A program made the translations under genes and the position numbers. Positions 14,786-60,072 of a DNA stretch of 64,000 bases are shown here, in pieces (positions within the stretch are counted from its first letter, which is position 1; every line of letters starts with the position of its first letter). Location of the stretch: positions 1-64,000 of IMG/VR virus record IMGVR_UViG_3300043427_002233; one strand, 5' to 3'. The notes under the pieces are model-generated. The model had not been told where the DNA came from and ran no database searches. It saw only the letters and a program-made list of their open reading frames with translations. The DNA is from a virus.

Positions 14786-15394
14786 TTAAATATATTTAAA
14801 TTTTAATTCGGACAACAAACGTTTCTTCGTACCTTTATTCTTATCATTGACATGGCGCCTAAAAGATGATAAGGAAACATCCAGCTCTTCGGCAGCATCT
14901 TTCAAAGATTCATAAACAACCCAGTGTTTATTAAGTAAAACCGCAATTTTCTTACCTCGGTGGCTATGATCGAAAGCTTCACCCGGTGGAACGATCAATA
15001 GATTCTTAAAGCTACAGTTCGTCATCTTCCGGTTACGATGATAGATTTTGGAGTTCGGAACCCACAATCTAGAGAACGTCATCGCCACTAACTTTTTTAA
15101 AGGATATCGACGGTGATCGATAACAACCGCAAGGTATTCTTCACGTTTACTTTGCTTATTACGTTTATACAACTTCGTTGGTAATCTTTTAAAAAGGCTA
15201 GCGACCGGACCATTTTCCTGAAGATCACGTTTCATATACTTCTCCACATAACCTCTGGAGTTAACATAATATAAACAGTGAGCCGTCTCTTTAAAGAGGC
15301 GACGGTAATGTTCCCAATTCAAACGACGATGTTCCTCAAGATCCTTGATGGTATCAATCGTCATGCTGGCAATAAATTCTAATTGTTCTTTCAT
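14786..15394 (-). CDS. HNH-like endonuclease or DNA-binding protein with C-terminal helix-turn-helix
   Basis: 202 residues. The middle of the protein resembles the H-N-N part of HNH homing-type nucleases: YPLKKLVAMTF near 97-107, then H119, N126 and N131 in the context YHRNRKMTNCSFKNL. The usual second histidine next to H119 is not seen, so activity is doubtful. The C-terminus (about 155-190) looks like a NUMOD1-type helix-turn-helix (LKDAAEELDVSLSSFRRHV). Proteins like this are free-standing nucleases or their decayed relatives in phages; DNA binding is the safer guess. It has its own strong promoter and the ATG sits 7 bases after the -10 box with no ribosome site, so the message should be leaderless. 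It lies just upstream of the giant polymerase gene. Confidence 0.6.
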   Translation of the reverse strand: MKEQLEFIASMTIDTIKDLEEHRRLNWEHYRRLFKETAHCLYYVNSRGYVEKYMKRDLQENGPVASLFKRLPTKLYKRNKQSKREEYLAVVIDHRRYPLKKLVAMTFSRLWVPNSKIYHRNRKMTNCSFKNLLIVPPGEAFDHSHRGKKIAVLLNKHWVVYESLKDAAEELDVSLSSFRRHVNDKNKGTKKRLLSELKFKYI

Positions 15395-15401
15395 CTACTT
15401 T

Positions 15402-15431
15402 ATTATAAACACAAAAGAAAACAGTTGTCAA
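15402..15431 (-). promoter_or_regulatory. Consensus sigma-70/A promoter for a leaderless gene
   Basis: Minus strand TTGACA (15431-15426), 18 bases, TATAAT (15407-15402), then 7 bases to ATG 15394. The -35 lies in an inverted repeat GTTGTCA/TGACAAC (15424-15446), which with the T-rich stretch after it could also end transcripts of the upstream gene. The + strand 11-mer CAACTATTTGC at 15429-15439 recurs at the promoter near 39370. Confidence 0.75.
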
Positions 15432-15616
15432 CTATTTGCTGACAACCGTATCGTTCCGCCAAACTCATCTTCTTTTTCATCGACTTCATAGAACCAGTTC
15501 GACATAAACATCGCGGCAGCTTTGAGACGATGTCTCGACGCGAAGCGTCCGGCGAATTTAGTCCGACCATGTCGATCGATTTCATACAGCGAGTAGATCT
15601 TAATCTTCTTGACCAT
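15428..15616 (-). CDS. Small basic protein of unknown function
   Basis: 62 residues, not recognised. It is rich in basic and aromatic residues (KKIKIYSLYEIDRHGR..., ending in SANS). The ATG at 15616 lies 12 bases after AAGGAGG, a slightly long spacing; a GTG overlapping that site leads only to a short blocked frame. A second frame over the same bases (15403-15585) has no ribosome site and is rejected. It is the last of four small genes before the HNH-like gene. Confidence 0.55.
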   Translation of the reverse strand: MVKKIKIYSLYEIDRHGRTKFAGRFASRHRLKAAAMFMSNWFYEVDEKEDEFGGTIRLSANS

Positions 15617-15619
15617 CGG

Positions 15620-15704
15620 GTGCGCTCACCTCCTTGAGTCCCATCATAGCACCACCTGTGGTCAAATCGTTTTGTAAAACGCTTACATTTTCCTGAAAGC
15701 CGTT
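15620..15704 (-). promoter_or_regulatory. Short intergenic stretch with three small palindromes
   Basis: Between two minus-strand genes. It holds CTGAAA/TTTCAG (about 15692-15707, touching the upstream gene end), CGTTTT/AAAACG and ACCAC/GTGGT. They could be operators or RNA hairpins. No T-run typical of a terminator follows them. Confidence 0.3.
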
Positions 15705-15941
15705 TCAGAAATTCATCGTCACGGTTTTCTCGAACAACGCTTTCTCTTCTGGCTTATCCCACTTGATCATCAAGTTGGTACGTAGTTGGCCATAACGAGC
15801 GGTCAGATGCGTCTCTTCATCGACAAAGTTTAAACCGCCGTAACTTCTAAATCCCGATAAAGCCTTATTCACTTCGCTAACAATATGCTCCGGCGAATGC
15901 CCAACTTGAATCAACAAGTCATCCCGAAATAAATAAAACAT
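15705..15941 (-). CDS. Small hypothetical protein
   Basis: 78 residues, not recognised. Mixed alpha/beta composition starting MFYLFRDDLLIQVGHSPEHIV. Its ATG at 15941 overlaps the last base of the upstream stop codon, so it is probably translationally coupled to the 109-residue gene. Part of the small operon driven by the promoter at 16729. Confidence 0.6.
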   Translation of the reverse strand: MFYLFRDDLLIQVGHSPEHIVSEVNKALSGFRSYGGLNFVDEETHLTARYGQLRTNLMIKWDKPEEKALFEKTVTMNF

Positions 15942-16270
15942 TATTTTTTTACTTTCTTCTTAACTGGCTTATCTCCATCCGTATCTCCCCGGGCAACGGT
16001 CCATACCGGTTGATCGTCTAAATGATCAAGCCCATCTTCGAGTTCTGATTTAATATCTTTCCAGGTTCTTAACCCTTCATATTCTTCTTCGATTAATTCA
16101 AATGATTTACCTTCGAAAACAGGGTGAACGAAAGAAATAATAAAGCGAATCTCATTCGTGTTAGCAAGTTCGGCATCGGCTTCGATCTTTACTTGATAGC
16201 CATTCTTCGTTAGATGTTGAGCGATTGAGTTGGCGGATTCCCAGCCAACGACTGAAATTTCTCCGGACAT
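15941..16270 (-). CDS. Hypothetical protein with lysine-rich tail
   Basis: 109 residues, not recognised. The N-terminus (MSGEISVVGWESANSIAQHL) suggests a small alpha/beta domain; the end is a charged KPVKKKVKK tail that could bind nucleic acid. It starts three bases from the end of the upstream zinc-ribbon gene, behind AGGAGG. Confidence 0.6.
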   Translation of the reverse strand: MSGEISVVGWESANSIAQHLTKNGYQVKIEADAELANTNEIRFIISFVHPVFEGKSFELIEEEYEGLRTWKDIKSELEDGLDHLDDQPVWTVARGDTDGDKPVKKKVKK

Positions 16271-16272
16271 AT

Positions 16273-16722
16273 TTAGTCCTCCTTATTTTCTTTATAATAC
16301 TCTTCTATCGCAACGAAGTCAACCATTAAATCTTTATCTAGTTTTTGATTAAGTTCAAGAGCACATTGATCACAGTATGGCGAGATCCAACCCATGGATA
16401 TTTTAGTAGCAGGTTTGCCACAATGAATACAGATATAATAACTCATACGTTCGTATTTTGAGATGACATCATAAACTTCCCTTGATGCACCATGACAATA
16501 GAATCTTAACCCGCCAAACTTTTCTTTGACTTGAGTGATCAGCAACTCTTCACCCTTAAGTGCTGTGGCAATCTCTTCCATCATCTGTTCGCCGAAGGCA
16601 ATCCTCCAGCCACCCGGCATTCCATCTAACCAGGTTACTTTAGTCGATCGGTCATACTTACCGGTCATAAGATTCCTCAAACGAAGGAACGGATATTTTT
16701 TAAGAAGTTCTTTATTATTCAT
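16273..16722 (-). CDS. Zinc-ribbon protein with QVKEKFGGLRFY motif
   Basis: 149 residues. It has two CxxC pairs (C98/C101 and C117/C120), which should bind zinc. Upstream of them is the stretch ITQVKEKFGGLRFYC (about 62-76), which I recognise as a hallmark of a family of short hypothetical proteins found in phages and bacteria; its function is unknown. It is the first gene of a four-gene minus-strand operon. The start codon lies 6 bases after a TATAAT box and has no ribosome site, which predicts a leaderless message. Confidence 0.65.
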   Translation of the reverse strand: MNNKELLKKYPFLRLRNLMTGKYDRSTKVTWLDGMPGGWRIAFGEQMMEEIATALKGEELLITQVKEKFGGLRFYCHGASREVYDVISKYERMSYYICIHCGKPATKISMGWISPYCDQCALELNQKLDKDLMVDFVAIEEYYKENKED

Positions 16723-16728
16723 GGTTCT

Positions 16729-16757
16729 ATTATACTACTTTCTGCATTAATTGTCCT
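16729..16757 (-). promoter_or_regulatory. Promoter of leaderless zinc-ribbon gene
   Basis: Minus strand AGGACA (16757-16752), 17 bases, TATAAT (16734-16729), then six bases to ATG 16722. The -35 keeps GACA. Confidence 0.6.
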
Positions 16758-16854
16758 TTTAAATATGCAGTAATAGGATTATTCTAATATAATAGAAAGG
16801 CATAGTCTAACCCCTAAACCCAAAAATTCTGTGGAGCGTGCTAGTATATATTAT

Positions 16855-16898
16855 TGATGTTGTTAGTACCATTTGTGATTGTGTGATGTTGTTAGTAC
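16855..16898. repeat. 15-bp direct repeat
   Basis: TGATGTTGTTAGTAC occurs at 16855-16869 and 16884-16898, 29 bases apart start to start. The spacing is close to three helical turns minus two bases, so two protein copies could bind one DNA face. Iteron- or operator-like. Confidence 0.55.
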
Positions 16899-17079
16899 TG
16901 TTGTTGTGTTGTGGGGGTGCCTTCCCTACCACCAAACCAAGAAATACTTCCCCCACGTACCCCCAACACTAATAGTAACACTTAACACCCCCAAAAGTAC
17001 TACCCTACCCTATATATATACCATACATATATATATATACTCTCTCTCTACTATTATCCAACGATAATGAATTTGACAG

Positions 17080-17250
17080 AAGCCCTAGTGGCGTATGAAC
17101 GTTTGGGGTTTGATCGTAAGAATTAGATCGGCCCTGTCACTAGAGCCCTATACTAAAGTTTCCCCGAGCAACCGGATGACATTGCGTGTTCAGAACCCTT
17201 ATCGGGATGTCCCCTGGTTTATCGCTCGCAAAGTGATGGTCAAGATATGG
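17080..17250. other. GC-rich stretch with nested stems, possible structured RNA
   Basis: This stretch is clearly richer in G+C than the genome around it. CTAGTG (about 17085) can pair with CACTAG (17138-17143), enclosing GGG/CCC and GATC/GATC pairs. Further on, GACAT/ATGTC encloses CCC/GGG (about 17177-17210). I could not match it to a known RNA family or a tRNA. It may be an RNA or a DNA structure element. Confidence 0.35.
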
Positions 17251-17268
17251 CCATGTAACAATGCGTCT

Positions 17269-17367
17269 CCCCCTGGTCCCCTGATCCCCTACCCTACTTA
17301 TTCCCCTTACCCCCCCCTACCCCCTAGAATAGGCTACCCCTATTCCCCTAGTCCCCCCCACCCCCTA
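17269..17367. repeat. C-tract cluster (G-quadruplex potential on minus strand)
   Basis: At least ten runs of three to seven C lie within 100 bases on the plus strand, separated by short spacers such as TA, TTA or AGT. The minus strand therefore has many G-runs that could form quadruplexes. This is striking in an AT-rich genome. Confidence 0.7.
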
Positions 17368-17742
17368 GTATCATTTGGTACTTTTGAGTGTTACGACTAG
17401 TGTGCAGACGTTATGTCTCACGTGTGTGTGGTGTGTGTGTGGTGTGTGAGGTCTGCTAGTATCTTTAGTTTGATACTTTATGGTGGATCTCATGGAATTG
17501 GGTTAACTCTTTCTATTATATTATCTAGATCATTATGTATGTTTATAATATAGTTTACAGAAAAGTTTTTCTACAGCCCTATTTTTAGGGTAACTCTGGG
17601 GTAAAGCAAGCGTACACTCCATAACTCATTAAATCCATAGTGGGTTATGGTGTGTATGTTTACAGTTATGTCGAGTTATACTTTGGCTAATCTACTTTTG
17701 CCATTTTAACTTTGACTTAATGGAAACGTACACTGCAGAACT

Positions 17743-17756
17743 ACAGTATATACTGT
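17743..17756. promoter_or_regulatory. 14-bp perfect palindrome, candidate operator
   Basis: ACAGTATATACTGT is a perfect palindrome of the size bound by helix-turn-helix dimers. The repeated octamer CGTACACT lies upstream of it (17611-17618 and 17727-17734), and an imperfect inverted repeat CCATAACTCA/TGGGTTATGG lies at 17619-17650. Confidence 0.45.
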
Positions 17757-17812
17757 GTGTTTTATGTAGTGTTTCTTTATTGTTACATTACTTTTAAACT
17801 GAAGTGTATATT

Positions 17813-17896
17813 CCTATTTATATAGGACGCTGGGAAAAAGTTTTCCAATGGGGTTGAGTGCTTACGCCTCAACTTTATTGGTGAGCTTTAAGCTCA
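17813..17896 (+). promoter_or_regulatory. Four-hairpin leader before the first plus-strand gene
   Basis: Consecutive short stems: CCTAT/ATAGG (17813-17826), GGAAAA/TTTTCC (17833-17846), GTTGAG/CTCAAC (17853-17873) and TGAGC/GCTCA (17882-17896). They end just before the ribosome site GAAAGGGG. They could control or stabilise the leader, or serve as hairpin promoter elements for a virion polymerase. Confidence 0.45.
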
Positions 17897-17912
17897 AGAA
17901 AGGGGAATCTAA

Positions 17913-18155
17913 ATGAATACTGAATTAGTTTCAAAGTCATTCAAATTTGAAAACGGTCTTCGCGCTGTTCTTTATGTCGAAGATCATTTTATAAGTTTTG
18001 ATGGCTATGTTCCTGTTGGTTATGGTTGGGCAGGATTATCTTTACTAGGTCTAAAGAGTGAAGTTATTCCTACTTTGATTGAATTAATTAAATCTTTACC
18101 AAGCGATACAACTTACGAACAACTTCAATCTGAAATGAATAAAGTTAATAAATAA
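17913..18155 (+). CDS. Small hypothetical protein, first gene of plus operon
   Basis: 80 residues, not recognised. It begins MNTELVSKSFKFENGLRAVLY and has a glycine/tryptophan-rich centre (VPVGYGWAGLSLLGL); the C-terminus is helical and charged. The ATG follows GAAAGGGG at 7 bases. It follows the control region and the four-hairpin leader, so it is probably expressed early. Confidence 0.6.
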   Translation: MNTELVSKSFKFENGLRAVLYVEDHFISFDGYVPVGYGWAGLSLLGLKSEVIPTLIELIKSLPSDTTYEQLQSEMNKVNK

Positions 18156-18159
18156 CTTT

Positions 18160-18240
18160 GTGAAGTGCATTAGCAATAGTGCACTTTGCTGAGGTATTTA
18201 AACCTCTAGCTGGTTACTCAATGTTAACTTGACCAGCCAT
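18160..18240 (+). promoter_or_regulatory. Three-hairpin intergenic leader
   Basis: Right after the stop codon at 18155 come AAGTGCA/TGCACTT (18163-18186, 10-base loop), GAGGT/ACCTC (18191-18206) and GCTGGT/ACCAGC (18209-18237). No T-run follows, so it is not a simple terminator. AGGAGG and the next ATG follow at once. The layout is like that at 17813-17896. Confidence 0.5.
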
Positions 18241-18256
18241 AAATCAAGGAGGATTT

Positions 18257-18475
18257 ATGAAAAAGATTATTGTCTTTGACGCTAAGGGAAAGGTTGTTAA
18301 AACCAAGTACCTGTTTAAGAGTATCACTACTGGTACTCTTAAATCTTTTACAGCATCCTTACCTCAATGGTGGGCTGCTTACTACATACCTTACAAAAAC
18401 GTAAGGATTTACTATACTAGATGGAAAGGTTTAGAACCGTACTTGTTTGTGCGTGATTCATATAAAAAAATATGA
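18257..18475 (+). CDS. Small basic hypothetical protein
   Basis: 72 residues, basic and aromatic-rich (several W and Y), not recognised. It starts MKKIIVFDAKGKVVKTKYLF, a probable beta-hairpin. The ATG lies 4 bases after AAGGAGG. Its stop codon overlaps the next start as ATGA. Confidence 0.6.
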   Translation: MKKIIVFDAKGKVVKTKYLFKSITTGTLKSFTASLPQWWAAYYIPYKNVRIYYTRWKGLEPYLFVRDSYKKI

Positions 18476-18630
18476 AGATACCTCTTTACCTTTCAAAAAA
18501 AGGCTATGGTTGTTTTAAGTTAGGATCTTATTGGTATCCTACACAAAACAATATTTCTTTTAGTACTTTAAAATTTAAAACCAAAATTAGTTTACTTGGT
18601 TTCTTAGATTTTCATTCTCAAAACTCATAA
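18472..18630 (+). CDS. Tiny hypothetical protein coupled by ATGA overlap
   Basis: 52 residues (MKIPLYLSKKGYGCFKLGSY...LDFHSQNS), not recognised. It has no ribosome site of its own; the ATG overlaps the upstream TGA by four bases, so translation probably restarts from the gene before it. Confidence 0.5.
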   Translation: MKIPLYLSKKGYGCFKLGSYWYPTQNNISFSTLKFKTKISLLGFLDFHSQNS

Positions 18631-18642
18631 ATATTTTGGCTA

Positions 18643-18750
18643 GTGTTGCAATAACCATGCGAAAGCTAAAGACACTACGTGACATTTGTGACGATAGACT
18701 AACGGTGATAGTTAGTCGAGGGCTTTGAAAGGAACCCTGGGTTGCAACAC
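18643..18750 (+). ncRNA. Candidate structured RNA or leader element
   Basis: A perfect 9-bp stem, GTGTTGCAA (18643-18651) with TTGCAACAC (18742-18750), can extend inward by CCA/TGG. It encloses a GC-GAAA-GC tetraloop hairpin (18659-18666), a 7-bp stem GACTAAC/GTTAGTC with a 7-base loop (18697-18717), and a bulged GGG/CCC stem (18720-18737). The element fills the gap between two genes, and the gene after it has no ribosome site. It could be a separate RNA or a translation-controlling leader. No known family fits; a group I intron core was considered and not supported. Confidence 0.5.
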
Positions 18751-18763
18751 CCGAATAATTTGT

Positions 18764-19021
18764 ATGGGTAACTCCAACAAAGTAACGACGTTGATCCGTT
18801 ACACTAAGAAGATCAACATTAGTGATGCCGATAAATCTTTATCGCGCATGCGTCAAGAAGCCAAGGTACGTGATTACCTTTGGTCTGAAGGAGGTTGTTT
18901 TTTAAAGATTTGGAATGGCTTTGAATATGTTGAACGCATGTTTGACATCAAAGAACTTTCTAAAGTCCGTGCTGCTTACTATTACCAAGACACGAAGACT
19001 CTCGTGCTTGAAATCTTTTAA
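18764..19021 (+). CDS. Small hypothetical protein behind a structured leader
   Basis: 85 residues from ATG 18764, not recognised. It is basic and rich in aromatic residues (RYTKKINISDADKSL..., then YLWSEGGCFLKIWNGFEYV). A TTG 13 codons upstream lies inside the stem of the structured element, so I prefer the ATG even though no Shine-Dalgarno sequence precedes it. Start-site access may depend on the RNA fold. Confidence 0.5.
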   Translation: MGNSNKVTTLIRYTKKINISDADKSLSRMRQEAKVRDYLWSEGGCFLKIWNGFEYVERMFDIKELSKVRAAYYYQDTKTLVLEIF

Positions 19022-19037
19022 GGAGGATTTATCTACC

Positions 19038-19586: not shown

Positions 19587-19601
19587 GGAGGTTTTATTAT
19601 T

Positions 19602-19751
19602 ATGAAACAAATCATACTTAATCATCTGGCTGTACTTATGGATAAACTTATTGGAAACTTGGCTACTGACGCAAGTGCTGATAAGAAAGATGCCTACGGA
19701 GTAGTTCTTCTTGAACTTCACCGGCTTGTTAAGGTTATTAAATCATTATGA
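19602..19751 (+). CDS. Tiny helical protein
   Basis: 49 residues (MKQIILNHLAVLMDKLIGNL...), probably two amphipathic helices; function unknown. AAGGAGG lies 11 bases upstream of the ATG. Its stop overlaps the next start as ATGA. Confidence 0.55.
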   Translation: MKQIILNHLAVLMDKLIGNLATDASADKKDAYGVVLLELHRLVKVIKSL

Positions 19752-21976: not shown

Positions 21977-21995
21977 AATGAAAGGAGGAAAAACC

Positions 21996-26659: not shown

Positions 26660-26679
26660 TATCGCCTCTAATCTTTTTT
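26649..26679 (+). terminator. Probable terminator of plus operon
   Basis: GAGGC (26649-26653) pairs with GCCTC (26664-26668) across a 10-base AT-rich loop, with TTTTTT a few bases later. It spans the meeting point of the plus operon and the chaperonin gene. The stem is short, so it may be leaky. Confidence 0.45.
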
Positions 26680-28170
26680 AATCAGTATGTAGGCACGTAG
26701 GTAGTTTGCTGCGATTGAACTTGCGTTCGTTAAGGATGTTTCGATTGATGCATAGCTATCTACGATGCCTGCTTTAGTTAAGTTTACTTCTTTCTTACTA
26801 ACTACATCTATCGCTATACTATTTTGTAACCCAGCTTCCTTAGTAATCTTTAACCCAGCATTGGATAAAATGGTTAACAACGGTTTACGTAAAACATTAC
26901 TGAGCTCAGGTACCTCGAACGATACGTTCCATAATGCCTTACCCGCTCCGATTGTAATGCCTTTTTTAGTAGCCGTTTTTACCGCTCCGATTGCGTCGTC
27001 TAGCTTCAACTTAATCGTCATGTATTCTGTGACGGTTGGGGCATATATCTTAATCTTTGTTACGCCCGACTCTAGATTGGCTAGCCTACGTGTGATCATG
27101 TTGGCACGGTTCATTCCAGTGGTGTAAGCTTGTTCTTCAAGTTCTTTCTTGTAACTCTTGATACGTTGTAACAAAGCTTTAGCATTGGGTGCTTCTGCCG
27201 TAATCGTCGTTTTCATTTGTTCAATGATAATAGACTTAGCCTTGCCTAACGAATCAAATACAAAGTCAGCTCCACTAACTGCATCCTGTGCTGTTCCGCC
27301 AGTATACGCAGCTACGTCTAAGAAGATCTCTTCTTGGGATACGTCGTTGATGAAGATGATTTGGAATTTGAATTTGTTTTCTGTCAAGGTATCTAATAAT
27401 AACTTTAAAGACTCCGGATTAAATTTGTTTGATACGATGAAGACGAACGGGTGATCGATCTGGTCTTGAGGGATAGAAGCGAAAAACTTCTGGGTATCCA
27501 GCTGTGTGAAGATGCCTTCCTTTAGGACGGCGATGAATGGGTTTTGGTATACGGTCTTCTCACCTTCGTTGCATAACGCTCTGAGTGACTCTGACATGTA
27601 ACCAGCATCTAACGTCATGCCAGATGTGAACTCCACATAAGATTCTTCTTTGATCCGCTCGTGCTCCGTGACTACGTTCATTGTCCCGCCAGACTTGCGA
27701 TATGCTTCAGCTACTAATGCGCCGATGGCCGGGATCTTTGTAACGATCGTTGATAGATTAGCTACCTGATCAATCGTAAGTTTGATGCGATACTTCTTGA
27801 GTTCGTCTTTTGCTTTCGCAACTAGCTCAAGTAGTTTGTCTGCAGCAACCTGCGGGTGTAACCCACGTTTGATCCAAGCTAAGCCTTGCTTGTATAACTC
27901 ATTCGTTAGTAAGACTGTTAAGGTCGTACCATCAAATGCTGTCTTCTCTGTATTGTTGGCAGCTTCAATCATGGAGATGGCTACCATCTTTTCAAATCCC
28001 TCGAAGTCGAATGCTTGCTTGGCCACGGTAACACCGTCGTCAGTTAAGATGGGCCGGCTGAATTCATCTTGAATGACAGCCATCCGACCCTTTGCTCCCA
28101 TCGTTGGGACTACCATGTCTGCGATCTTCTGGAAAGTATCCTTGATGATCTTGATATCTGATGTCTTCAT
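26668..28170 (-). CDS. groEL-like: Phage GroEL-like chaperonin
   Basis: 500 residues, against about 548 for bacterial GroEL. The group I chaperonin ATP-site landmarks are present: TMGAKGR (23-29, for TLGPKGR), TDDGVTVAK (43-51, with D45 at the GroEL D52 place), FDGTT (79-83, with D80 at the D87 place, although the G before it is F), LDDAIGAV for the D398 region, then GAGKAL for GGGVAL. The GGM tail of GroEL is absent. It should form ring-shaped folding chambers in the cytoplasm for phage proteins. Phage chaperonins are known from a few large phages such as EL and AR9. Its ATG overlaps the stop of the 283-residue gene as ATGA, behind GGAGG. A GroES-like gene lies 2.7 kb upstream in the same direction. 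Confidence 0.9.
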   Translation of the reverse strand: MKTSDIKIIKDTFQKIADMVVPTMGAKGRMAVIQDEFSRPILTDDGVTVAKQAFDFEGFEKMVAISMIEAANNTEKTAFDGTTLTVLLTNELYKQGLAWIKRGLHPQVAADKLLELVAKAKDELKKYRIKLTIDQVANLSTIVTKIPAIGALVAEAYRKSGGTMNVVTEHERIKEESYVEFTSGMTLDAGYMSESLRALCNEGEKTVYQNPFIAVLKEGIFTQLDTQKFFASIPQDQIDHPFVFIVSNKFNPESLKLLLDTLTENKFKFQIIFINDVSQEEIFLDVAAYTGGTAQDAVSGADFVFDSLGKAKSIIIEQMKTTITAEAPNAKALLQRIKSYKKELEEQAYTTGMNRANMITRRLANLESGVTKIKIYAPTVTEYMTIKLKLDDAIGAVKTATKKGITIGAGKALWNVSFEVPELSNVLRKPLLTILSNAGLKITKEAGLQNSIAIDVVSKKEVNLTKAGIVDSYASIETSLTNASSIAANYLRAYILIKKD

Positions 28171-33781: not shown

Positions 33782-34015
33782 CTAGATCTCCTTTAATATT
33801 GTTAGATCTTTACGATTGATAAACCCATGTCTATTAGCTAACACCATGAGTATACGATGTGATCTTTTGTTCTCATTGTATTCTCCAGTCTTAACTAAAC
33901 GGATAGCCTGTCTTATGTTGGATTGGAAGATTTCTTCTTTGCTTCTTAAACGTTTACGTTTTTTTCGCAAGGTAATTCTACTAATCTTACTATCTAAGAG
34001 GGCGTTTAAATCCAT
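33782..34015 (-). CDS. Small basic protein, first gene of chaperonin operon
   Basis: 77 residues, very basic (KKRKRLRSKEE), not recognised. The ATG lies six bases after TATAAT with no ribosome site, so the message should be leaderless. It heads the operon that carries the GroES-like and tiny-protein genes. Confidence 0.55.
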   Translation of the reverse strand: MDLNALLDSKISRITLRKKRKRLRSKEEIFQSNIRQAIRLVKTGEYNENKRSHRILMVLANRHGFINRKDLTILKEI

Positions 34016-34021
34016 AAATCA

Positions 34022-34054
34022 ATTATAACACAATCAATTGCAATATGTTATAAT
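34022..34054. promoter_or_regulatory. Divergent pair of extended -10 promoters in an inverted repeat
   Basis: ATTATAACA (34022-34030) and TGTTATAAT (34046-34054) form a perfect 9-bp inverted repeat with a 15-base spacer. Each arm is an extended -10 box (TGnTATAAT). The minus arm lies six bases before ATG 34015, the plus arm seven bases before ATG 34062, so both messages should be leaderless. Confidence 0.7.
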
Positions 34055-34061
34055 GTTTTAT

Positions 34062-34802: not shown

Positions 34803-35058
34803 AGCCAAGCTGCTTCTTAAGAATCTATTCTTAACGAAAGAAGGCTGGCTATCATGGATCATAGCTAATGTTATTACGTCACTTCCGTGGGCACTACCTT
34901 TAATCTATGGATTTATTTTTAAAGATGCTAATGCATATGTAATCGCTGCATCTATTTGGACTTTTGTGATGCTACCCATTACACCCTTCTGGGTCTTTAA
35001 CGTTTTGATTGCAACATTCTTTGTACAAAAAGTATTTAAAATAAAAAACCCACAGTGA
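34783..35058 (+). CDS. Small two-to-three-span membrane protein
   Basis: 91 residues. Hydrophobic stretches near 20-42 (WLSWIIANVITSLPWALPLIYGF) and 48-82 suggest two or three membrane spans with a basic N-terminus. It overlaps the upstream gene by 20 bases. A holin is possible from size and build, but holins cannot be called from hydrophobicity alone. Its stop lies inside the bidirectional terminator stem. Confidence 0.5.
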   Translation: MKKMITKAKLLLKNLFLTKEGWLSWIIANVITSLPWALPLIYGFIFKDANAYVIAASIWTFVMLPITPFWVFNVLIATFFVQKVFKIKNPQ

Positions 35059-35163
35059 AGGGGGAGACACTGTGGATCTTTTGAAAGGAGGGGCCATGGA
35101 AATGAATTAACCATGGCTCCCTAGAAAGGAGGTATAGGGGAGAGGTCGCGTCTCTAACCCTAC
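35043..35163 (-). ncRNA. Candidate small RNA with two 16S rRNA anti-Shine-Dalgarno copies
   Basis: About 121 bases on the minus strand between a good promoter (TTGACT, 16 bases, TGTTATAAT; 35197-35170) and an intrinsic terminator (CCACAGTG/CACTGTGG, then TTTTTT; 35075-35043). Two more hairpins lie between. The first, UGUAGGG/CCCUAUA (about 35164-35134), has a G-U pair that works only on this strand. Between the hairpins, predicted single-stranded, are CCUCCUUUC at 35132-35124 and at 35091-35083. The first reads ACCUCCUUUCUAGGG, like the 3' end of Bacillota 16S rRNA and its precursor. It should pair with ribosome sites of mRNAs. On the plus strand the same bases read as ribosome sites, one before a four-codon frame, an alternative reading. 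Confidence 0.55.
35050..35075. terminator. Bidirectional terminator
   Basis: Perfect 8-bp stem CCACAGTG/CACTGTGG with a 10-base loop. On the minus strand it is followed by G and six T; on the plus strand by ATCTTTT, weaker. It would end the candidate small RNA on one side and the plus-strand pair of genes on the other. Confidence 0.75.
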
Positions 35164-35169
35164 ACCATT

Positions 35170-35197
35170 ATTATAACATGTCTTTATTTTAAGTCAA
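35170..35197 (-). promoter_or_regulatory. Promoter of candidate small RNA
   Basis: TTGACT (35197-35192), 16 bases, TATAAT (35175-35170) with TG extension. It overlaps the last codons of the primase-helicase gene and has no protein gene downstream, only the 121-base structured stretch. Confidence 0.65.
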
Positions 35198-42868: not shown

Positions 42869-43045
42869 TTATGTAATGATTACAAATAACTTTACGTATT
42901 CTAATCGATACCTTTTTAACAACATCAATTGTTTTCTTGTAGGTATTCTTACTCTTTCTAATTCTCCAATTCTTCTGTTTAAGAAGAACAGTCTTGCATA
43001 AGTAAGGTGTTTACGATCCAATGATTTCTTGGAGCTCTTGCTCAT
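42869..43045 (-). CDS. Small protein related to the C-terminus of the neighbouring DUF1064 protein
   Basis: 58 residues from ATG 43045, behind AAAGGAA; a longer frame from 43093 overlaps the neighbour more. ARLFFLNRRIGELERVRIPTRKQ matches the end of the DUF1064 protein upstream (ARIAWLNARINELDEMQNPTRAQ); about 15 of 35 residues are the same. A basic helical hairpin is likely; function unknown. Confidence 0.5.
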   Translation of the reverse strand: MSKSSKKSLDRKHLTYARLFFLNRRIGELERVRIPTRKQLMLLKRYRLEYVKLFVIIT

Positions 43046-43568
43046 ACCTACTTTTCCTTTCTTGTTGGGCTCTTGTTGGATTTTGCATTTCATCTAGTTC
43101 GTTGATTCTTGCATTTAACCAAGCAATCCTAGCAAGACGATTCTTAAGTTCTGTTCGTTCTTGTTTGATTTGTTGCCGCTTTGATCTCATTGTTTGTTTA
43201 TATGAATCAAGCTCAACCCATCCCGTAGTTTTAGAATACTTTAGAACCTCCAAGTGTAACGAAGGGTACAAGTATTCAAACATCTTACGGTGGATCTCAA
43301 ATTCGGGTAACACCATACCCTTAACATCGATGATTCTTTCTAAATTTTTAGAAACATCTAAGAATTGAAAATCAGCCTCATAATGCATAGGCTTCCACTT
43401 CTTTCCTTTCTTTTCAAACTCTGGTATAAGCATGAAAAGAGGATGGATCTTAAGATCTTTGATCTCACCCTTTGCAAGACGTTCTTTAAGAATAAGATAA
43501 TAACTGTATTCCATTTCGGAATCAAATCTATATCCGTCTGCATCGACTTTTTTGGCGAAGATTCTCAT
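43011..43568 (-). CDS. DUF1064 PD-(D/E)XK-type protein with C-terminal helical hairpin
   Basis: 185 residues. The first 125 residues (FDSEMEYSYYLILKERLAKG..., YEADFQFLD..., IIDVKGM) match DUF1064, a small nuclease-like fold of phages with a D...(D/E)xK core (D and K of DVKG visible). The last 45 residues form a basic helical hairpin not typical of the family. Its promoter is the consensus pair upstream. It heads the long replication operon. Confidence 0.75.
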   Translation of the reverse strand: MRIFAKKVDADGYRFDSEMEYSYYLILKERLAKGEIKDLKIHPLFMLIPEFEKKGKKWKPMHYEADFQFLDVSKNLERIIDVKGMVLPEFEIHRKMFEYLYPSLHLEVLKYSKTTGWVELDSYKQTMRSKRQQIKQERTELKNRLARIAWLNARINELDEMQNPTRAQQERKSRYEQELQEIIGS

Positions 43569-43593
43569 ATCATCACCTGCCTTTCTAATACAT

Positions 43594-43621
43594 ATTATAT
43601 ATTATATTAGAAAGATGTCAA
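43594..43621 (-). promoter_or_regulatory. Promoter of the replication/recombination operon
   Basis: Minus strand TTGACA (43621-43616), 16 bases, TATAAT (43599-43594), then a 25-base leader with AAAGGCAGGTGA before the DUF1064 gene. Confidence 0.75.
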
Positions 43622-46800: not shown

Positions 46801-47559
46801 TAATTGGCTAGCGGAAACACTTCCTAATGATGGAGAGTCCGTATATTGTGGAACATCTGGGTGTGCATAAACATAGATTGTACTATCAGGTCTAGCAGCT
46901 CCAAAGACAATAGCACCAGTAGAGTTATTATAAGTATACTGAGTGTTTCCTGATGGGGCTGATGCAACTTGTGTTGCCCTTGTTCCACCAGCTGAAATGT
47001 TTAAAAACACAACAACGTTTGTTGGTAATGGTGTTTGATCAAGAGTAAACGTTGTATTGTTAGCTGTCGTATAAGTATAAATAGATCGATAACCAGTATT
47101 TAAAATTGGATAAGTAACTGAGTTGTAAACTTTAAGGTGTCGCGTTGCAGTAACATACCACTTTTTATCAGCAGCATGCATTGCGTTATCAATTGAGTTA
47201 ATGTATAATTTCTTCCCACCAAATGGGTTGGTTGGCATTAATACATCGTTATAAGGGATACCACTGACATCAGGAGGTGTAGCCCACGAACCATCATTAC
47301 GTAAGAACGTTGTTGTTCCAGTCCCTAAGGCAATAGAAGAGCGAACGATCGAATCTGAACCGTTTACAAGAACTAACTTTTGACCCGACGCTACAGCTGT
47401 ATCAGCTGTAATCGTTCCACCGTTAGTTATATTTCCATGAGTATGTGAGGTAGGCGTAAAAGTAGCAGGCTTATTATCAATGTTTGACCAATCAGCAGTA
47501 GGATAAACAACATCGTACGCAGACGATCCTGTCTTCCTGCGAATTTTAACATTCGCCAT
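43831..47559 (-). CDS. Large tail fibre with VGIGTTSP repeats
   Basis: 1,242 residues. The first 25 residues (MANVKIRRKTGSSAYDVVYP) resemble the start of the neighbouring fibre and are probably the virion anchor. SHTHGNI motifs occur near 40 and near 1030. From about 460 to 960 there are seven copies of a beta-strand unit around NGNVGIGTTSP, each about 25-100 residues apart, as in trimeric fibres. The C-terminal 150 residues (YHTITLPHSGYYSITVYGMW...) look like a C1q-type beta-sandwich, probably the receptor-binding tip. The intramolecular chaperone common after such repeats is not seen. Confidence 0.75.
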   Translation of the reverse strand: MANVKIRRKTGSSAYDVVYPTADWSNIDNKPATFTPTSHTHGNITNGGTITADTAVASGQKLVLVNGSDSIVRSSIALGTGTTTFLRNDGSWATPPDVSGIPYNDVLMPTNPFGGKKLYINSIDNAMHAADKKWYVTATRHLKVYNSVTYPILNTGYRSIYTYTTANNTTFTLDQTPLPTNVVVFLNISAGGTRATQVASAPSGNTQYTYNNSTGAIVFGAARPDSTIYVYAHPDVPQYTDSPSLGSVSASQLFDGNYDSYVSVATTEYVKIRITPGNNVLTDFSSSIGYPYGQFYLSHYYDGAPEAEYLRTYNYSYAAQGIGWKQVTFSNFVNDNTNVNFISQASNESDFGRSVIEIIVVSKASKIGYLSQIDWKLSRPDLASSGSTVTKFGQNKLYNNLLFGQQTTLMELSGTNGWIRTSDNSAAAPAFSFINDTDTGMFRPAADTLAFAEGGSEVMRITSNGRVGIGATVPDQLLHVGGAINLHSQITWFNGNADINGADTNIKFRTYNGTALTEYMRLTSAGNVGIGSTSPSTKLEVAGGIIKLFESGNTALKTYSASAGGFLASYQSDAGSTFTKTLDIVSNGDGTVPSNMRFLTKADGSSNPTERLRILANGNVGIGTTSPAEALQISSGNLRLTNGSAFTTANSLVREINVASGSANQFITSSIGFRIGTFSDEGIITFGTAPNASSPTERMRIIGNGNVGIGTTAPSILGIGREFSVSAVGLGLPTAYMNVQGSRTTDTDVGALVFNNSVSGTNSVIASISSQRSGANNSGNLQFGTASAGTFTQKMTILPNGNVGIGTASPNQLFEVKGAGLTYAKVSSATNGSFRGVGFGIENDSSIYGSVAMEMTNGQMRFQTGFAGWGGFQTFFTDGTEKMRITSGGNVGIGTSSPAVKLHVVGATRITGQLNVMGDAETKRVWVDYEDGNDMGTIQVVQDGVAYKNLALQPDGNNVGIGTRSPGEKLEVNGVAKATRFTSTVATGTAPLTVDSTTVVTNLNADLLDGNHGSAYQLVSGMGSYALSNHTHGNISNGGGWQSSPSTISSGDSLVVTQSGLLRNTTLAFNSNTDAYLAQNGTWVKPTYTAYKSTKESNATTTASTYHTITLPHSGYYSITVYGMWSKTTTTNLVGNVISVITSDNTGTPKFDGAFEWQQTTTASSFATENNSINIPTSGTSLGITTQTATQSRTETYWSMKGFLYTGTTTDKTLSFQFACSTAPGTGDVALEKIAIVATKVG

Positions 47560-47562
47560 AAA

Positions 47563-48837
47563 TTACCACCCGTTCGAGGTACTTAAATCATCGTAAATAT
47601 ATGAACCAATTGGAGCTGTAGAATCAGCGGTTGTCTTCGCCAAGTCATAATAAATATTAGGTTTATTACTTATAGAGTTTGTCACTAATGTATCGACTTC
47701 AGAAGTGCTATAGACACCTAAAGATTCTCTAACGGTAATACCACTTTCAGCAACAAAATTTGTTCCGTTACCAACAATAAAGTTACCATCAGTTACAGCT
47801 AATCCAGCGATGTCAGCAAGTTTAGCGCTATAACCTTGGACATTTGTACCAATAACTAAACCCAACGTTGCTCTTTGAGCTGTAGTATCTGCATCATCTA
47901 AGATTGCGCGACCTGCGGCTGTTAATGACATGGTTGTAAATGTATCATTACCATTACCATAAACAAGAGTATCAGCTGCAATAGTCAAACCTGCAAAGTT
48001 TGTCAGTGTCGCATCTAGTGGTTGATATTGTGAGTGAGTGTGTGATGCAGGAGCAATCTTGTTTGTAATAGGTGTGCCAGAATTATATAAATCTGTACCA
48101 TCTACGGTAATATTGTCATATAAGAAGTTTTCTGTAACAACATCAGTATGTCCGTCTTGTAAACCTGTAGCGTTTGTTGTCTCATTATATCGTCCAGCGT
48201 TTTGCGTTGTTCCAACAACTGTAACAATACCGGCGTTTGCAGTTCCAGCATTTTCATAAACGTTATTAATAACAGAAGCAGTAAAAATAATTGCAGCACC
48301 AGAACTAGAACCATCTCCACCTCCGATAGCTTCAATAACAAACCAGTCTCCAGCTTCTAAAACTCCAGATGAAGTAGAGGCTGTACCGCTAGTCCCACCA
48401 TCTGTTGGTCTAAATTGTAAAGTTGCATAAACAGCTGGGTCAGAACCTAATGCTAAGATGCCAGTAAGATCTGAAATAGTACCACCAGTAGTAATTAAAA
48501 AATAATATCCTTTAATACTTCTATCAGCTGAATTAGCCGCATCTCTTGCGGCAATTAATGCAGCCGCTAAAGTTTGTCTCGTACCTTCAGTACCGACGTT
48601 ACCAGTTGTTGAACCATAATATAAAAGACTATCAAACACTGCATCAGGCAATTGAGCGATCGGAATTTTAATATTAGCATCTAAGGTAGCAACACCATTA
48701 GCAACACCTTTTTGAGTTAAAGGAACCTTTGCATCAAGCGCGGTTTGTAATCCATCTACTTGTGAAATAACAGTTGCAGGATAAAGATTCTCATATGTTG
48801 AGGATGCTGTCTTTCTTTTAATTTGAATGTTTGCCAT
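47563..48837 (-). CDS. Second tail fibre sharing the N-terminal anchor
   Basis: 424 residues. The start MANIQIKRKTASSTYENLYP is nearly the same as that of the 1,242-residue fibre. It contains SHTHSQYQPLDATL near 265 and beta-helix-like strands afterwards (LTNFAGLTIAADTLVYGNG). The end (ISNKPNIYYDLAKTT) lacks a receptor-tip domain. It may be a stem or branch protein that pairs with the larger fibre on the tail. Confidence 0.7.
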   Translation of the reverse strand: MANIQIKRKTASSTYENLYPATVISQVDGLQTALDAKVPLTQKGVANGVATLDANIKIPIAQLPDAVFDSLLYYGSTTGNVGTEGTRQTLAAALIAARDAANSADRSIKGYYFLITTGGTISDLTGILALGSDPAVYATLQFRPTDGGTSGTASTSSGVLEAGDWFVIEAIGGGDGSSSGAAIIFTASVINNVYENAGTANAGIVTVVGTTQNAGRYNETTNATGLQDGHTDVVTENFLYDNITVDGTDLYNSGTPITNKIAPASHTHSQYQPLDATLTNFAGLTIAADTLVYGNGNDTFTTMSLTAAGRAILDDADTTAQRATLGLVIGTNVQGYSAKLADIAGLAVTDGNFIVGNGTNFVAESGITVRESLGVYSTSEVDTLVTNSISNKPNIYYDLAKTTADSTAPIGSYIYDDLSTSNGW

Positions 48838-48847: not shown

Positions 48848-49309
48848 CTATTTTTTATTTATTTTTTCAGAAAGTATAGCTTCTGTTTCAATACCTAATT
48901 CCAATGTTCCTTGTAAACCCTTAAGTAAAGAACGAACATTTGTAACGTAAGGATTTAAAAAATCTAAAAGAGCTTTATTTCTGTCCTCTTGTATTTTAAC
49001 ATCTTTTTTTAAATTTTCTAAAACATCAGGTGCTGGTGCAGTCTTCTTGTATGTCTCAAAATCTGATCTTAGTTTTATAAGTTCTTGAGTCTTAGATTCT
49101 AAAGATAAACTCACTTGAGCTAAGTTACTTTTAACGTTTTTATAATCTTGTAAATCTTTCTCTAAAAGATTTTTAACCTTGCCTATCTCGATGATCTCTT
49201 TATCTTTAACGTCAACAGCAGATCTTAAATGACCAAGTTCTTCGATCTTATTATTAAGTTCGATTACCTTTACAATTAATTCTGCTTTAGATAGTTTGTC
49301 AATTTCCAT
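48848..49309 (-). CDS. Coiled-coil protein
   Basis: 153 residues, almost entirely one heptad-rich coiled coil (about 1-125) of L, E and K. Probably a structural rod or an assembly factor for fibres. It is the first gene after the promoter at 49333 and has AAGGAG before its ATG. Confidence 0.6.
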   Translation of the reverse strand: MEIDKLSKAELIVKVIELNNKIEELGHLRSAVDVKDKEIIEIGKVKNLLEKDLQDYKNVKSNLAQVSLSLESKTQELIKLRSDFETYKKTAPAPDVLENLKKDVKIQEDRNKALLDFLNPYVTNVRSLLKGLQGTLELGIETEAILSEKINKK

Positions 49310-49332
49310 TATAATATCTCCTTACTTAAACC

Positions 49333-49341
49333 ATTATAACA
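49333..49341 (-). promoter_or_regulatory. Extended -10 promoter inside the virion operon
   Basis: TGTTATAAT on the minus strand (49341-49333) within AATATGTTATAATG, identical over 14 bases to the plus arm at 34042-34055. No good -35. The leader to ATG 49309 contains AAGGAG. Confidence 0.5.
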
Positions 49342-50922: not shown

Positions 50923-50923
50923 G

Positions 50924-52863: not shown

Positions 52864-52871
52864 AAATCCTC

Positions 52872-53618: not shown

Positions 53619-53626
53619 AATACCTC

Positions 53627-56059: not shown

Positions 56060-56072
56060 TTTTATCTCCTCG

Positions 56073-58982
56073 TCATTCTATATCATACCATATATCGCCA
56101 TTAGTTGCTTCAACCGGTTCATCTTGACTGATAAATAATCTAGTGCCACCCAATTGTGAATTTGTTTCAACTTTATTATATTGTCTAACACTTTCTAAAA
56201 GAGTAGAATCTTTAGTTAAAATTCTAAAGTCGTCACCCTTACGGACGATATCTTTGTAAAGCCCATATGGATTTTGATCAGGTATATCAACTGTAGTGTA
56301 GTTAAATGTGACGCTAGAGAATGAAAACTCACTTTCAGATTTGCTTGATACAAGTAATTCTATAAGTAAGAATGGAAACTTGTAAGTAGAGTTAACAACC
56401 TTACTATCAATAATTGGGCTATCAAGCTTCAACGTATTGTTATTATAAAGATCTCCAACTCTTAAAGTCTTTTTATCTTGGATAAGTGGTTTGTTTTTCC
56501 ACTCTAAAATTTTATGACCTGCTTCATTAAACCCTTCAACTTCAATATCAATTTCTGAATATTGATTTCGATTATAAAAGAAAGTAGTATTATCTAGCAA
56601 TTTATACATCTTTGGTTTTTCAAGATCATATGCCTTTAGTCTAATATGGCATGGATAAATGGTATCAAAGTCTTTATAGTTAACATCATTCATTGTGACA
56701 AGAGTATTGTTATATAAATAAATAGGATTGTTCTTTACATATATCAGATGATCAGTATTAAAAAGATCTGATTCATCTCTGAGCCATGGGAAGTAAACCT
56801 TATTATCAGCTCTATAACCAAGTTTAAAATACATCTTTAAACGAACAGCTGGATAGACATTAGTAATAGAACCATCTGATTCTACAATATTTTTTTCATG
56901 CCACATAATAGCATAATAGTCTTCAGTTATTTCACTAGTGCAGTTGTTATCATTCCATGGTATCGTTACGTTTTTGTTTTCAAACTTAACCTTATCATTT
57001 GCAGAGTAAAGATTTACTTTATCTTGATCTAATTCACCAGCTTGAATATAATAAATTGTATTAAAGTGTTTAAATAACAACATATTCTCAGCAACTTGAA
57101 CAGTGGCTGGGTTATCGCAAGATACATTTGGAGATATTGTGACACGTCTATATGGAGAATAATACTGATCTGTCTCTACATCGTCTCCATTTCCTTTGAC
57201 CAAGTGAATAGATCCACCAACAGAAGAACTATTGGCAAATGCAATGATGAATCCAGAGAATGCAATGACTTTTACCAACGCTTCATTCTTATTTGTTTTA
57301 AATGAAAGGCCACCTCTTAGCGTTATATAAGTAGGATTATTAATTACAGTCTTAAACCATTCACCAGAATTCATAGCATCATCATAGAAACAGAACTTAT
57401 TGCCATCAGCGTGAACTTTTGTACATGAATGAATTGTTTTAAACAAACCACTAGGCTTTATATTTATATCGTAAAGAACACTAGCTGCTTGTCCAAAGAA
57501 AGAACCGTCGATCTTGTTTATCTTAAAGTCAACGATTTTCTCTCCGTTGATATCAATTAACTCCTCTGATATATAAGAAACATTTGTTGTAGCGGTAGGT
57601 GATTCGTCCACTTCAAAGCTCTTTGCAAACGATACCCTGTATTTGTAAGTCATAGCATCATCAACAGTAATAGTAGAGTAATCAAGTTTATAAACAGAAT
57701 CAACATATTCGTTGTTAATAAATGTTTTGGTACTATAGAAGTTATCTTCAAACCTTACGATAGTTCTCCATTGATTATTAACCAGCTTTTCCCATCTAAA
57801 ATAATATTCATTGATATCTTCATTAGCTGCTAATGTCATGATTGGTTTTAGAATAAAAGAAGCTTTACCATTAACAACACTATAAAGAGGAATTAAAGCA
57901 CCAATAGAAGTAATGGCTTGATCAAACTCAGATTGCAAAGCTAAATCTGGGTATGGTGAAAGATAGTTATTACCTATTTGATTGAGAACAATACTATTTA
58001 AAAGCTTTGGTGATATAACGTAAGCTAATAATTTTCCATTGGTATCTGGATAGATGTTGACGATTCTTGTACCAGTAGCTAGGTAAAGAACATTATTAAA
58101 TGTTCCTCCCTCTACTTTTTTCACATTCTGAAAAATAAGAGTTTCATCTATGTCATTTAACAATTCGAACCTGTTGTCAAAAGCTACGTTATAACCCCTA
58201 ACTAAATGTTCTTCAACACATTCATAATATGAATTACCATAAAGAACTAATTGACCTTTAAAGTATTTAATAAAGTTAGGTTCCCATGTAATAATATTAT
58301 TAAATTGAGATTCACCTATCAAAGTCTTAAGGCTTTCTGTATTTTTAAGTAACCATTTAGCAGAAGTGTCGGGTTTAACAAATGTAATTGTTAAAAAATC
58401 AGTGTTTGGTTCACCAATAAATCTGTAATATTTATTATCATATAAAAAATAATTATCTAGTTCAATAATAAAATTTTCAATTAATCTATTAAATTCACCA
58501 ATATATTTTAAACCGTTATCTTTTTCAATAACATAACCATTATGTAATACGGTTGTTGGTAAACTAGATGCTCTATATCTTTCAAGACCTACTGTTAAGT
58601 TTGTAGGATCGTGGATTAATGAGCGGCTATAATCAGAGAATTTTATTGGTAATTGAACTACTTCAATTTCTGTGTTTGGAGAATAAATACCATAATATAA
58701 CTTCCCATCGGCCGCTATAATAAGATAAGTAACGTTGGTTGTAAACAATGAAATACCTTGAACGTTCTTTATATCTTCTTTAGCAATGATGGTACTTAAT
58801 ATCTTAGCACCTTTTCTTTTTACTATGCCGCCAGAAAGATAATGAACATTTAATGCATCTCTTAATTCATTCGGATTGAGATGTTCGTTACTAGGATCGA
58901 GGTTAATACCACCAGTAAAAGACCTGTATGTAACAGGTTCGTCCGATACATATAAAGGATATTTTTTTACAATTGCCGGCAT
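56073..58982 (-). CDS. Tail hub / stabilisation protein (P22 gp10- or T7 tubular B-like)
   Basis: 969 residues. The first 60 residues (YRSFTGGINLDPSNEHLNPNELRDALN, then GGIVKRKGAK) carry the pattern of podovirus tail tube/stabilisation proteins: GGin...l...E..d..N, then G....R.G. The rest is long and all-beta with repeated strands, as in the propeller-like hub (the muzzle in crAss-like phages). It is located after the connector gene and ahead of the fibres, as expected for the last conduit part of a short tail. Confidence 0.7.
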   Translation of the reverse strand: MPAIVKKYPLYVSDEPVTYRSFTGGINLDPSNEHLNPNELRDALNVHYLSGGIVKRKGAKILSTIIAKEDIKNVQGISLFTTNVTYLIIAADGKLYYGIYSPNTEIEVVQLPIKFSDYSRSLIHDPTNLTVGLERYRASSLPTTVLHNGYVIEKDNGLKYIGEFNRLIENFIIELDNYFLYDNKYYRFIGEPNTDFLTITFVKPDTSAKWLLKNTESLKTLIGESQFNNIITWEPNFIKYFKGQLVLYGNSYYECVEEHLVRGYNVAFDNRFELLNDIDETLIFQNVKKVEGGTFNNVLYLATGTRIVNIYPDTNGKLLAYVISPKLLNSIVLNQIGNNYLSPYPDLALQSEFDQAITSIGALIPLYSVVNGKASFILKPIMTLAANEDINEYYFRWEKLVNNQWRTIVRFEDNFYSTKTFINNEYVDSVYKLDYSTITVDDAMTYKYRVSFAKSFEVDESPTATTNVSYISEELIDINGEKIVDFKINKIDGSFFGQAASVLYDINIKPSGLFKTIHSCTKVHADGNKFCFYDDAMNSGEWFKTVINNPTYITLRGGLSFKTNKNEALVKVIAFSGFIIAFANSSSVGGSIHLVKGNGDDVETDQYYSPYRRVTISPNVSCDNPATVQVAENMLLFKHFNTIYYIQAGELDQDKVNLYSANDKVKFENKNVTIPWNDNNCTSEITEDYYAIMWHEKNIVESDGSITNVYPAVRLKMYFKLGYRADNKVYFPWLRDESDLFNTDHLIYVKNNPIYLYNNTLVTMNDVNYKDFDTIYPCHIRLKAYDLEKPKMYKLLDNTTFFYNRNQYSEIDIEVEGFNEAGHKILEWKNKPLIQDKKTLRVGDLYNNNTLKLDSPIIDSKVVNSTYKFPFLLIELLVSSKSESEFSFSSVTFNYTTVDIPDQNPYGLYKDIVRKGDDFRILTKDSTLLESVRQYNKVETNSQLGGTRLFISQDEPVEATNGDIWYDIE

Positions 58983-58984
58983 GA

Positions 58985-59686
58985 TTATTCCTCTACGTGA
59001 ACAATAGAATCTTCTTCAAAAAACTCATCTTCATAAGCTAACTCGTGTGTAATATCTTCTACATAATATTTATAGTTGTTAAGATACATCTGGATTTTTT
59101 CAGTGTCCTTAACAAATCTAGAGTAATAAAAATAGGCAGAATAAAACACTAGTGCATCTTCAAATTCTTCACGAATATCGATGTCAACGTTTTCTAGGTT
59201 CTGTTCATCTGAGAGGGATTCGGTAATTGTTGGAGCAATTAACTTGGAATAATAACCAAACTTAAAGTTTACAATAGCACCTAATTCTAGATCATATTCG
59301 ATGATAAGACGATCGTCTTTGATGTAAAAGATTGCACGATTACTACCAATCCAACTTCTAAATCTATTCATATACCAGTTCTTCTGAACATTTGGGTTAC
59401 TCAAAGAATATCGCTTTGCTACAATACCATATTGTGGCAAGAAGATCTTAGTATAAAGAACTTTCCTAACTTGTGAAACAGGAATCTTAATTTCAATATA
59501 ACCAACTTCATTAACAACGACATCAGTTTGAGCAATATTATCGAACGTAATTTCTTTAAACAAACGATATCCTCTTGAGGTTAAATCAGCCATACAGTTA
59601 GATATGGCGGTTTGTAAAGACCCAATGGTAAGAATGTCTAAACCAGTTGTTTCGATAACTCTTTCGTATAATCGTTTTAGTTTCAT
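58985..59686 (-). CDS. Head-tail connector / adaptor protein
   Basis: 233 residues. LQTAISNCMADLTSRGYRLFKEITF, VQKNWYMNRFRSWIGSN and an acidic helical C-terminus fit the gp4/tubular-A class of ring adaptors that sit under the portal in podoviruses. ATGA overlap with the gene before it. The order capsid, connector, hub supports it. Confidence 0.6.
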   Translation of the reverse strand: MKLKRLYERVIETTGLDILTIGSLQTAISNCMADLTSRGYRLFKEITFDNIAQTDVVVNEVGYIEIKIPVSQVRKVLYTKIFLPQYGIVAKRYSLSNPNVQKNWYMNRFRSWIGSNRAIFYIKDDRLIIEYDLELGAIVNFKFGYYSKLIAPTITESLSDEQNLENVDIDIREEFEDALVFYSAYFYYSRFVKDTEKIQMYLNNYKYYVEDITHELAYEDEFFEEDSIVHVEE

Positions 59687-60057
59687 AGTTTAGTTCCTAG
59701 TGTCCTTTCGACTACGTTCATTGCAGTATTATCCTGTAGTCTCTTTTCTTCAGATTGTTCTAACCGATAGTTTGTTTTTTCTCTTCGATCTTGAACCTCT
59801 TTTATAAATTGTTTAAGGTTATTGGCTTTATAATCATTTATTAAAAAACCATTAACCATTTCTGGTTCAAGGCTAACGTTAAAGGAAATGTTATTAATCT
59901 TGTAGTTTTCTACTGAATGTACCTCATGTGTTCCTTTTAGAACATTATAAGCTACAAAGATATCTCCCTTAGACAATTTTAACATACGAGTTGAAATATT
60001 GTGAGCATTAGCAAATCGTAGTTCTGGCTGAAACCGTATGACATCTAAATAATTCAT
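59683..60057 (-). CDS. Small head-completion-type protein
   Basis: 124 residues from ATG 60057. The ATG two codons upstream touches the -10 box and cannot be in the transcript made there. Helical at the end, beta in the centre. Its position between the capsid and connector genes suggests a head-completion or connector-ring protein; no family recognised. Probably leaderless from the promoter just upstream. Confidence 0.55.
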   Translation of the reverse strand: MNYLDVIRFQPELRFANAHNISTRMLKLSKGDIFVAYNVLKGTHEVHSVENYKINNISFNVSLEPEMVNGFLINDYKANNLKQFIKEVQDRREKTNYRLEQSEEKRLQDNTAMNVVERTLGTKL

Positions 60058-60063
60058 ATACAT

Positions 60064-60072
60064 ATTATAACA
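60064..60072 (-). promoter_or_regulatory. Extended -10 promoter after the capsid terminator
   Basis: TGTTATAAT (60072-60064) directly follows the T-run of the capsid terminator. ATG 60057 lies six bases downstream. The likely -35 window falls in the loop of the terminator stem and is weak. Confidence 0.6.

Follow-up and report, generated by a model that had tools for sequence, protein, structure and literature searches.

The stretch of DNA analysed here (the window, 64,000 nt) corresponds to positions 1-64000 in a 70,202-base virus record of IMG/VR, and it raises the question of whether one phage can start some of its messages directly on the initiation codon and others behind a conventional leader. 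An earlier note had claimed that five ATGs stand 6-7 nt after a TATAAT box with no ribosome site, and all five boxes are present as described (Table 1; genes are called by the positions of their starts). Upstream of these five starts no Shine-Dalgarno (SD) site of at least 5 bases occurs in the usual place, with chance matches of 3-4 nt at most, and many inner genes carry AGGAG to AAGGAGGTG, which agrees with the strong inner sites that the note had reported. Judging from the sequence, we consider it very probable that each of the five starts is preceded by an ordinary promoter of the sigma-70 type (with an extended -10 in three cases), so close that transcription would begin on the A of the ATG or at most one base away. 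The resulting mRNAs would have no 5' leader, so that the ribosome would start the first gene of each unit on a 5'-terminal AUG, and most downstream genes of each unit would use SD sites. The leaderless reading is well supported for four of the predicted genes and likely for the fifth, 16722.

The window reads in the standard bacterial code and encodes a terminase, a weak portal match, a DUF5906-type primase, a Sak4-like recombinase, an exonuclease, a Cpn60 chaperonin and one giant gene. The chaperonin, a phage-encoded protein of the Cpn60/GroEL type at 26668-28170 (-), is 75% identical to its counterpart in a syntenic genome, IMGVR_UViG_3300035670_000211 (62,132 bases; G001 hereafter, the window genome being G000). 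G001 is the sole independent relative found, with shared proteins 23-87% identical. A second record is nearly identical to G000 over the parts compared and therefore provides no independent evidence. Beyond these two, viral scans returned only a weak terminase match and distant homologues of 16722, and GenBank phages gave protein matches of less than 60% identity or none. A pattern scan for the host found a relative of the terminase or portal in no genome contig; recognition of the promoters by the host is assumed.

Table 1. Predicted features of the window and matching G001 sites (elements on the coding strand, 5' to 3'; gap, nt from -10 to ATG).
Feature	Position	Strand	Elements and remarks	Gap
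Predicted leaderless gene 15394, 202 aa	14786..15394	-	TTGACA-18-TATAAT (15431-15402)-AAAGTAG-ATG	7
Its orthologue	G001 45787	-	TTGACG-18-TATAAT-AAAAGT-ATG	6
Terminator-like hairpin, 12 bp	15421..15449	-	3' arm contains -35 TTGACA of 15394 promoter	
Predicted leaderless gene 16722, 149 aa	16273..16722	-	AGGACA-17-TATAAT-AGAACC-ATG	6
Predicted leaderless gene 34015, 77 aa, basic	33782..34015	-	ATAACA-18-TGTTATAAT-TGATTT-ATG	6
Its orthologue	G001 949	-	TGATATACT-TGGAAT-ATG	6
Gap between divergent starts 34015/34062, 46 bp	34016..34061		two promoters overlapping head to head	
Predicted leaderless gene 34062, 246 aa	34062..34802	+	ATAACA-18-TGTTATAAT-GTTTTAT-ATG	7
Its orthologue	G001 1190	+	TGATATACT-TAGTTAT-ATG; N-terminus conserved from Met1	7
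Predicted leaderless gene 60057, 124 aa	59683..60057	-	TTAACT-18-TGTTATAAT-ATGTAT-ATG	6
Its orthologue	G001 21791	-	TGTTATAAT-TGTTTT-ATG	6
Terminator-like hairpin + T-run closing upstream unit	60064..60105	-	runs directly into TGTTATAAT	
SD-led giant gene, start 14725	2..14755	-	TACAAT; AGAGGAG	24
SD-led unit start 43568	43011..43606	-	TATAAT twice; GGCAGGTGATG	25 and 32
SD-led gene 49309	48848..49341	-	TGTTATAAT; AAGGAG	23
sRNA candidate, ~120 nt	35042..35163	-	hairpin, ACCUCCUUUCU, hairpin, CCUCCUUUC, terminator hairpin + T-run	
sRNA promoter	35170..35197	-	TTGACT-16-TGTTATAAT, 11/12 consensus	
sRNA candidate locus, window	35042..35197	-		
sRNA candidate locus, L013	2172..2281	-		

With -35 elements at 17-18 nt spacing, all five putative promoters match 10-12 of the 12 sigma-70 consensus bases. 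That of 15394 matches all 12, host recognition of the consensus being assumed. The extended -10 (TGn) is found at 34015, 34062 and 60057 and at their orthologues; 15394 and 16722 lack it, but their -35 elements agree with the consensus at 6/6 and 4/6 bases. The -35 of the 34015 promoter and that of the 34062 promoter (both ATAACA) are each the complement of TGTTAT in the other. Terminator-like hairpins are fused to the next promoter at 15402-15449 and 60064-60105 (-); the T-rich tail of the former hairpin forms the spacer of the 15394 promoter. The product of 15394 has a weak HNH-endonuclease match (PHROG 959, E=1e-5) and that of 34062 a weak match to the terminase small subunit; structure predictions were poor (pLDDT 53 for the 34062 product and 48 for the 60057 product). 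Other starts were considered for three of the genes. Met11 of 15394 was rejected, as it is not conserved in the G001 orthologue. Met19 of 16722, which has GAGGA upstream, is disfavoured by a distant homologue (L032) whose similarity begins at residue 2. For 60057 there is an alternative in-frame ATG at 60063, and both the N-terminus in G001 and the promoter spacing support 60057.

Exact TATAAT at 6-7 nt precedes 5 of the 74 called starts, and among the remaining 2,311 ATGs also 5 (Fisher p=5.6e-6), the starts having been called by a simple script that partly credits the TATAAT signal; in four of the five predicted leaderless genes the ORF offers no earlier ATG. Allowing one mismatch (5/6 matches) weakens the enrichment (p=0.0096). 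Regardless of starts, TATAAT followed by ATG at 4-12 nt occurs 22 times in the window against 14.3 expected. It is therefore the position of TATAAT, and not its mere presence, that is significant, as the counts alone are only mildly enriched and the starts strongly so.

Conservation in G001 carries more weight than this enrichment, because of the credit given to the signal in start calling. Orthologues in G001 exist for four of the five genes (none was found there for 16722), and each of the four retains a -10 (TATAAT or TATACT) 6-7 nt before the matching start. The -10 agrees between the phages at 5-6 of 6 bases, as against 6-10 of 25 flanking noncoding bases, which is near random. At the orthologues of 34015 and 34062 both hexamers read TATACT, with the TGn kept. 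When the four G001 upstream regions were shuffled 200,000 times, TATAAT or TATACT never stood at this place in three or more of them. The four orthologous proteins align from the predicted ATGs, the 15394 pair being weakly conserved over the first residues. From the layout, the enrichment at starts and the conservation at these four starts we infer where exactly transcription starts and how translation is initiated.

It might be argued that the boxes are inactive, with transcripts starting further upstream and translation proceeding without an SD site or from internal starts. Such SD-less starts on leadered mRNAs do exist, and the internal ATG at codon 19 of 16722 would offer a place for one of the latter, but the L032 homologue aligns upstream of that codon, the spacing is conserved amid diverged flanks, four N-termini are conserved from the predicted ATG, and transcripts arriving from upstream would be ended by the hairpins before 60057 and 15394. 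We regard this account as very improbable. Somewhat less improbable, though still unlikely, is that leaderlessness is a by-product of compaction, in which promoters squeezed between terminators or divergent genes have no room for a leader. The crowding is real in G000, where the -35 of 15394 lies within a terminator arm and 34015 and 34062 share 46 bp, and in both phages the promoter of 60057 sits directly against a terminator-like hairpin (the 60 nt upstream fold at -23.1 kcal/mol in G000 and -22.1 kcal/mol in G001, with the hairpin-to--10 junction present in each). In G001, however, the orthologues of 34015 and 34062 are 240 bp apart and 45787 is more than 100 bp from the nearest called ORF, and the 6-7 nt spacing is kept. 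Since these roomy gaps retain it, a shortage of space does not explain the short spacing, and compaction accounts at most for the local layout in G000. Under the preferred reading, that of promoters starting transcription on the start codon, a read-through mRNA from an upstream unit would translate a leaderless gene poorly, so expression of each such gene should depend on its own promoter.

A rule that the first gene of a unit must be leaderless is not supported, however. The earlier note's generalization to operon-first genes was too broad, because SD-led genes make up about half of the promoter-proximal ones. At 14725, 29018, 43568, 49309, 64950 and probably 16270, a -10-like element stands 21-32 nt upstream of the start and an SD site is present. 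This second layout, next to that with a -10 at 6-7 nt and no SD, would give leaders of ~15-25 nt. It too recurs in G001: the counterpart of 14725 has TATAAT at 24 nt and AGGAG, that of 43568 (at 11053) has identical spacing, and a similar counterpart of 64950 lies at 26682. The note's proposal that one phage uses two translation modes is supported as a prediction, both layouts being found in the sequence. The gene starting at 14725 is the giant one, and it apparently spans the record ends (window 2-14725 (-) plus L009 6558-10202 (-)), which suggests a circular or circularly permuted genome; it totals ~6,100 aa (~5,600 aa in G001) and has no match in Pfam.

The motif TGTTATAAT (TGn plus TATAAT, an extended -10) is indeed common to three of the leaderless units, but does not mark them. 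A scan of the full window finds 5 copies against 2.0 expected, a count reached by 7 of 100 shuffles. Of these, three stand before leaderless candidates, the copy at 49333 before the SD-led gene 49309, and that at 35170 before an sRNA candidate. With a near-chance count and one copy before an SD-led gene, its use as a marker of unit starts was rejected.

Leaderless starts are a known but minority mode of initiation, and phages mixing both modes are already known. In TA-led genes across bacteria the -10 lies ~12 bp before the start, counted from its first T, and the SD is absent (Zheng et al. 2011, PMC3160421). The phage sites resemble these, with a -10 12-13 bp upstream by its first T (6-7 by its last base) and no SD, and in both cases the leaderless genes are a minority beside SD-led ones. 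They differ in having a strong TATAAT or TATACT at promoter-proximal genes, where the bacterial genes have a loose TANNNT. In Deinococcus-Thermus, -10-motif genes have the motif 6-7 bp from the ORF, and its promoter action was shown by mutation in D. radiodurans (PMC12340547). The Thermus phage phiYS40 makes leadered and leaderless transcripts, most of the middle and late ones being leaderless (reviewed, PMC3594737). The present phage likewise combines leaderless and SD-led promoter-proximal genes, here at the level of sequence; a shift of the host's IF2/IF3 has been associated with phiYS40, whereas here only about five units are affected. The pair 34015/34062 recalls cI and cro of PY54, which, like lambda cI, have leaderless mRNAs (PMC4488713), in that divergent phage neighbours are each (here by prediction) transcribed from the AUG. 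The PY54 and lambda genes are repressors of temperate phages, however, and 34062 resembles, if weakly, a terminase small subunit, with no function assigned to 34015.

The earlier note had also supposed that a phage RNA could titrate ribosome sites. What stands of this is a candidate RNA, with an anti-SD linker that is conserved, in the convergent gap after the primase (Table 1); its one putative tie to the leaderless genes is that these have no SD for it to bind. Single-stranded ACCUCCUUUCU, identical in many bacteria to the anti-SD at the 3' end of 16S rRNA, lies at 35133-35123 between hairpins 1 and 2, and a second motif, CCUCCUUUC, at 35091-35083. G001 keeps the layout with different stems and an identical 11-nt linker, and has TGCTATAAT where the promoter of the sRNA candidate stands in G000. 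The comparison used an alignment with flanks and separate folds, as sequence-only alignment of the trimmed pair misplaced the linker. Both RNAs are far stabler than shuffles (MFE -48.2, z -6.5 in G000; -43.2, z -7.2 in G001), and the linker has an unpaired probability of 0.96-1.0 in both phages. Among 20,000 shuffles of either gap, 4 and 2 contained the 11-mer. The sRNA has no Rfam match at gathering score, and blastn of the locus against phages returned only short, chance-level matches at the promoter end.

Anti-SD motifs are known in the sRNAs alpha-r14, from rhizobia, and NfeR1 (PMC10746234, PMC3927594). Like alpha-r14, the phage RNA has three hairpins and a conserved, unpaired anti-SD motif amid highly diverged stems. 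The alpha-r14 type, however, carries CCUCCUCCC in each of its three hairpin loops; the phage candidate does not have CCUCCUCCC in its three loops, bears ACCUCCUUUCU in a linker instead, and is phage-borne, unlike alpha-r14. This anti-SD RNA is a more unusual part of the system than the leaderless genes.

Such an RNA may mask SD sites and thereby favour the leaderless units. Taken further, the phage would shift the cell to leaderless translation, with the sRNA (35163-35042, (-)) pairing with SDs and the leaderless units escaping. Architecture conserved between the phages, with the identical linker unpaired in each, speaks for this, as do the predicted duplex energies, whose medians at other called starts are -10.0 and -9.8 kcal/mol and which at leaderless 5' ends are -2.0 to -6.1 kcal/mol, near random (-3.6 and -3.3). 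The weak pairing of leaderless ends, though, simply follows from their having no SD; most genes of the phage are SD-led and would thus be affected too, the RNA would need an abundance rivalling that of SD sites, and the leaderless genes form no obvious functional class. We find such a shift clearly improbable, and slightly more so an RNA-based mode switch in which the RNA would dampen SD-led translation and the units would have been kept leaderless so as to be translated under SD masking. Either would supplement, not replace, the explanation by leaderless promoters. If the RNA does act on SD-led translation, the phage would offer a concrete setting in which to ask under what conditions leaderless mRNAs are favoured, something usually studied via drugs or altered initiation factors. 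The leaderless units themselves would show a known mode of initiation cleanly, and conserved, in an uncultured phage, and would improve the annotation of start sites.

About 1.1 kb without convincing ORFs (window 16779-17872; G001 47282-48343) is 71% identical between the phages. It has no match in Rfam, shares a run of ~68 identical bases with G001, and is a candidate for a large structured RNA or a replication origin.
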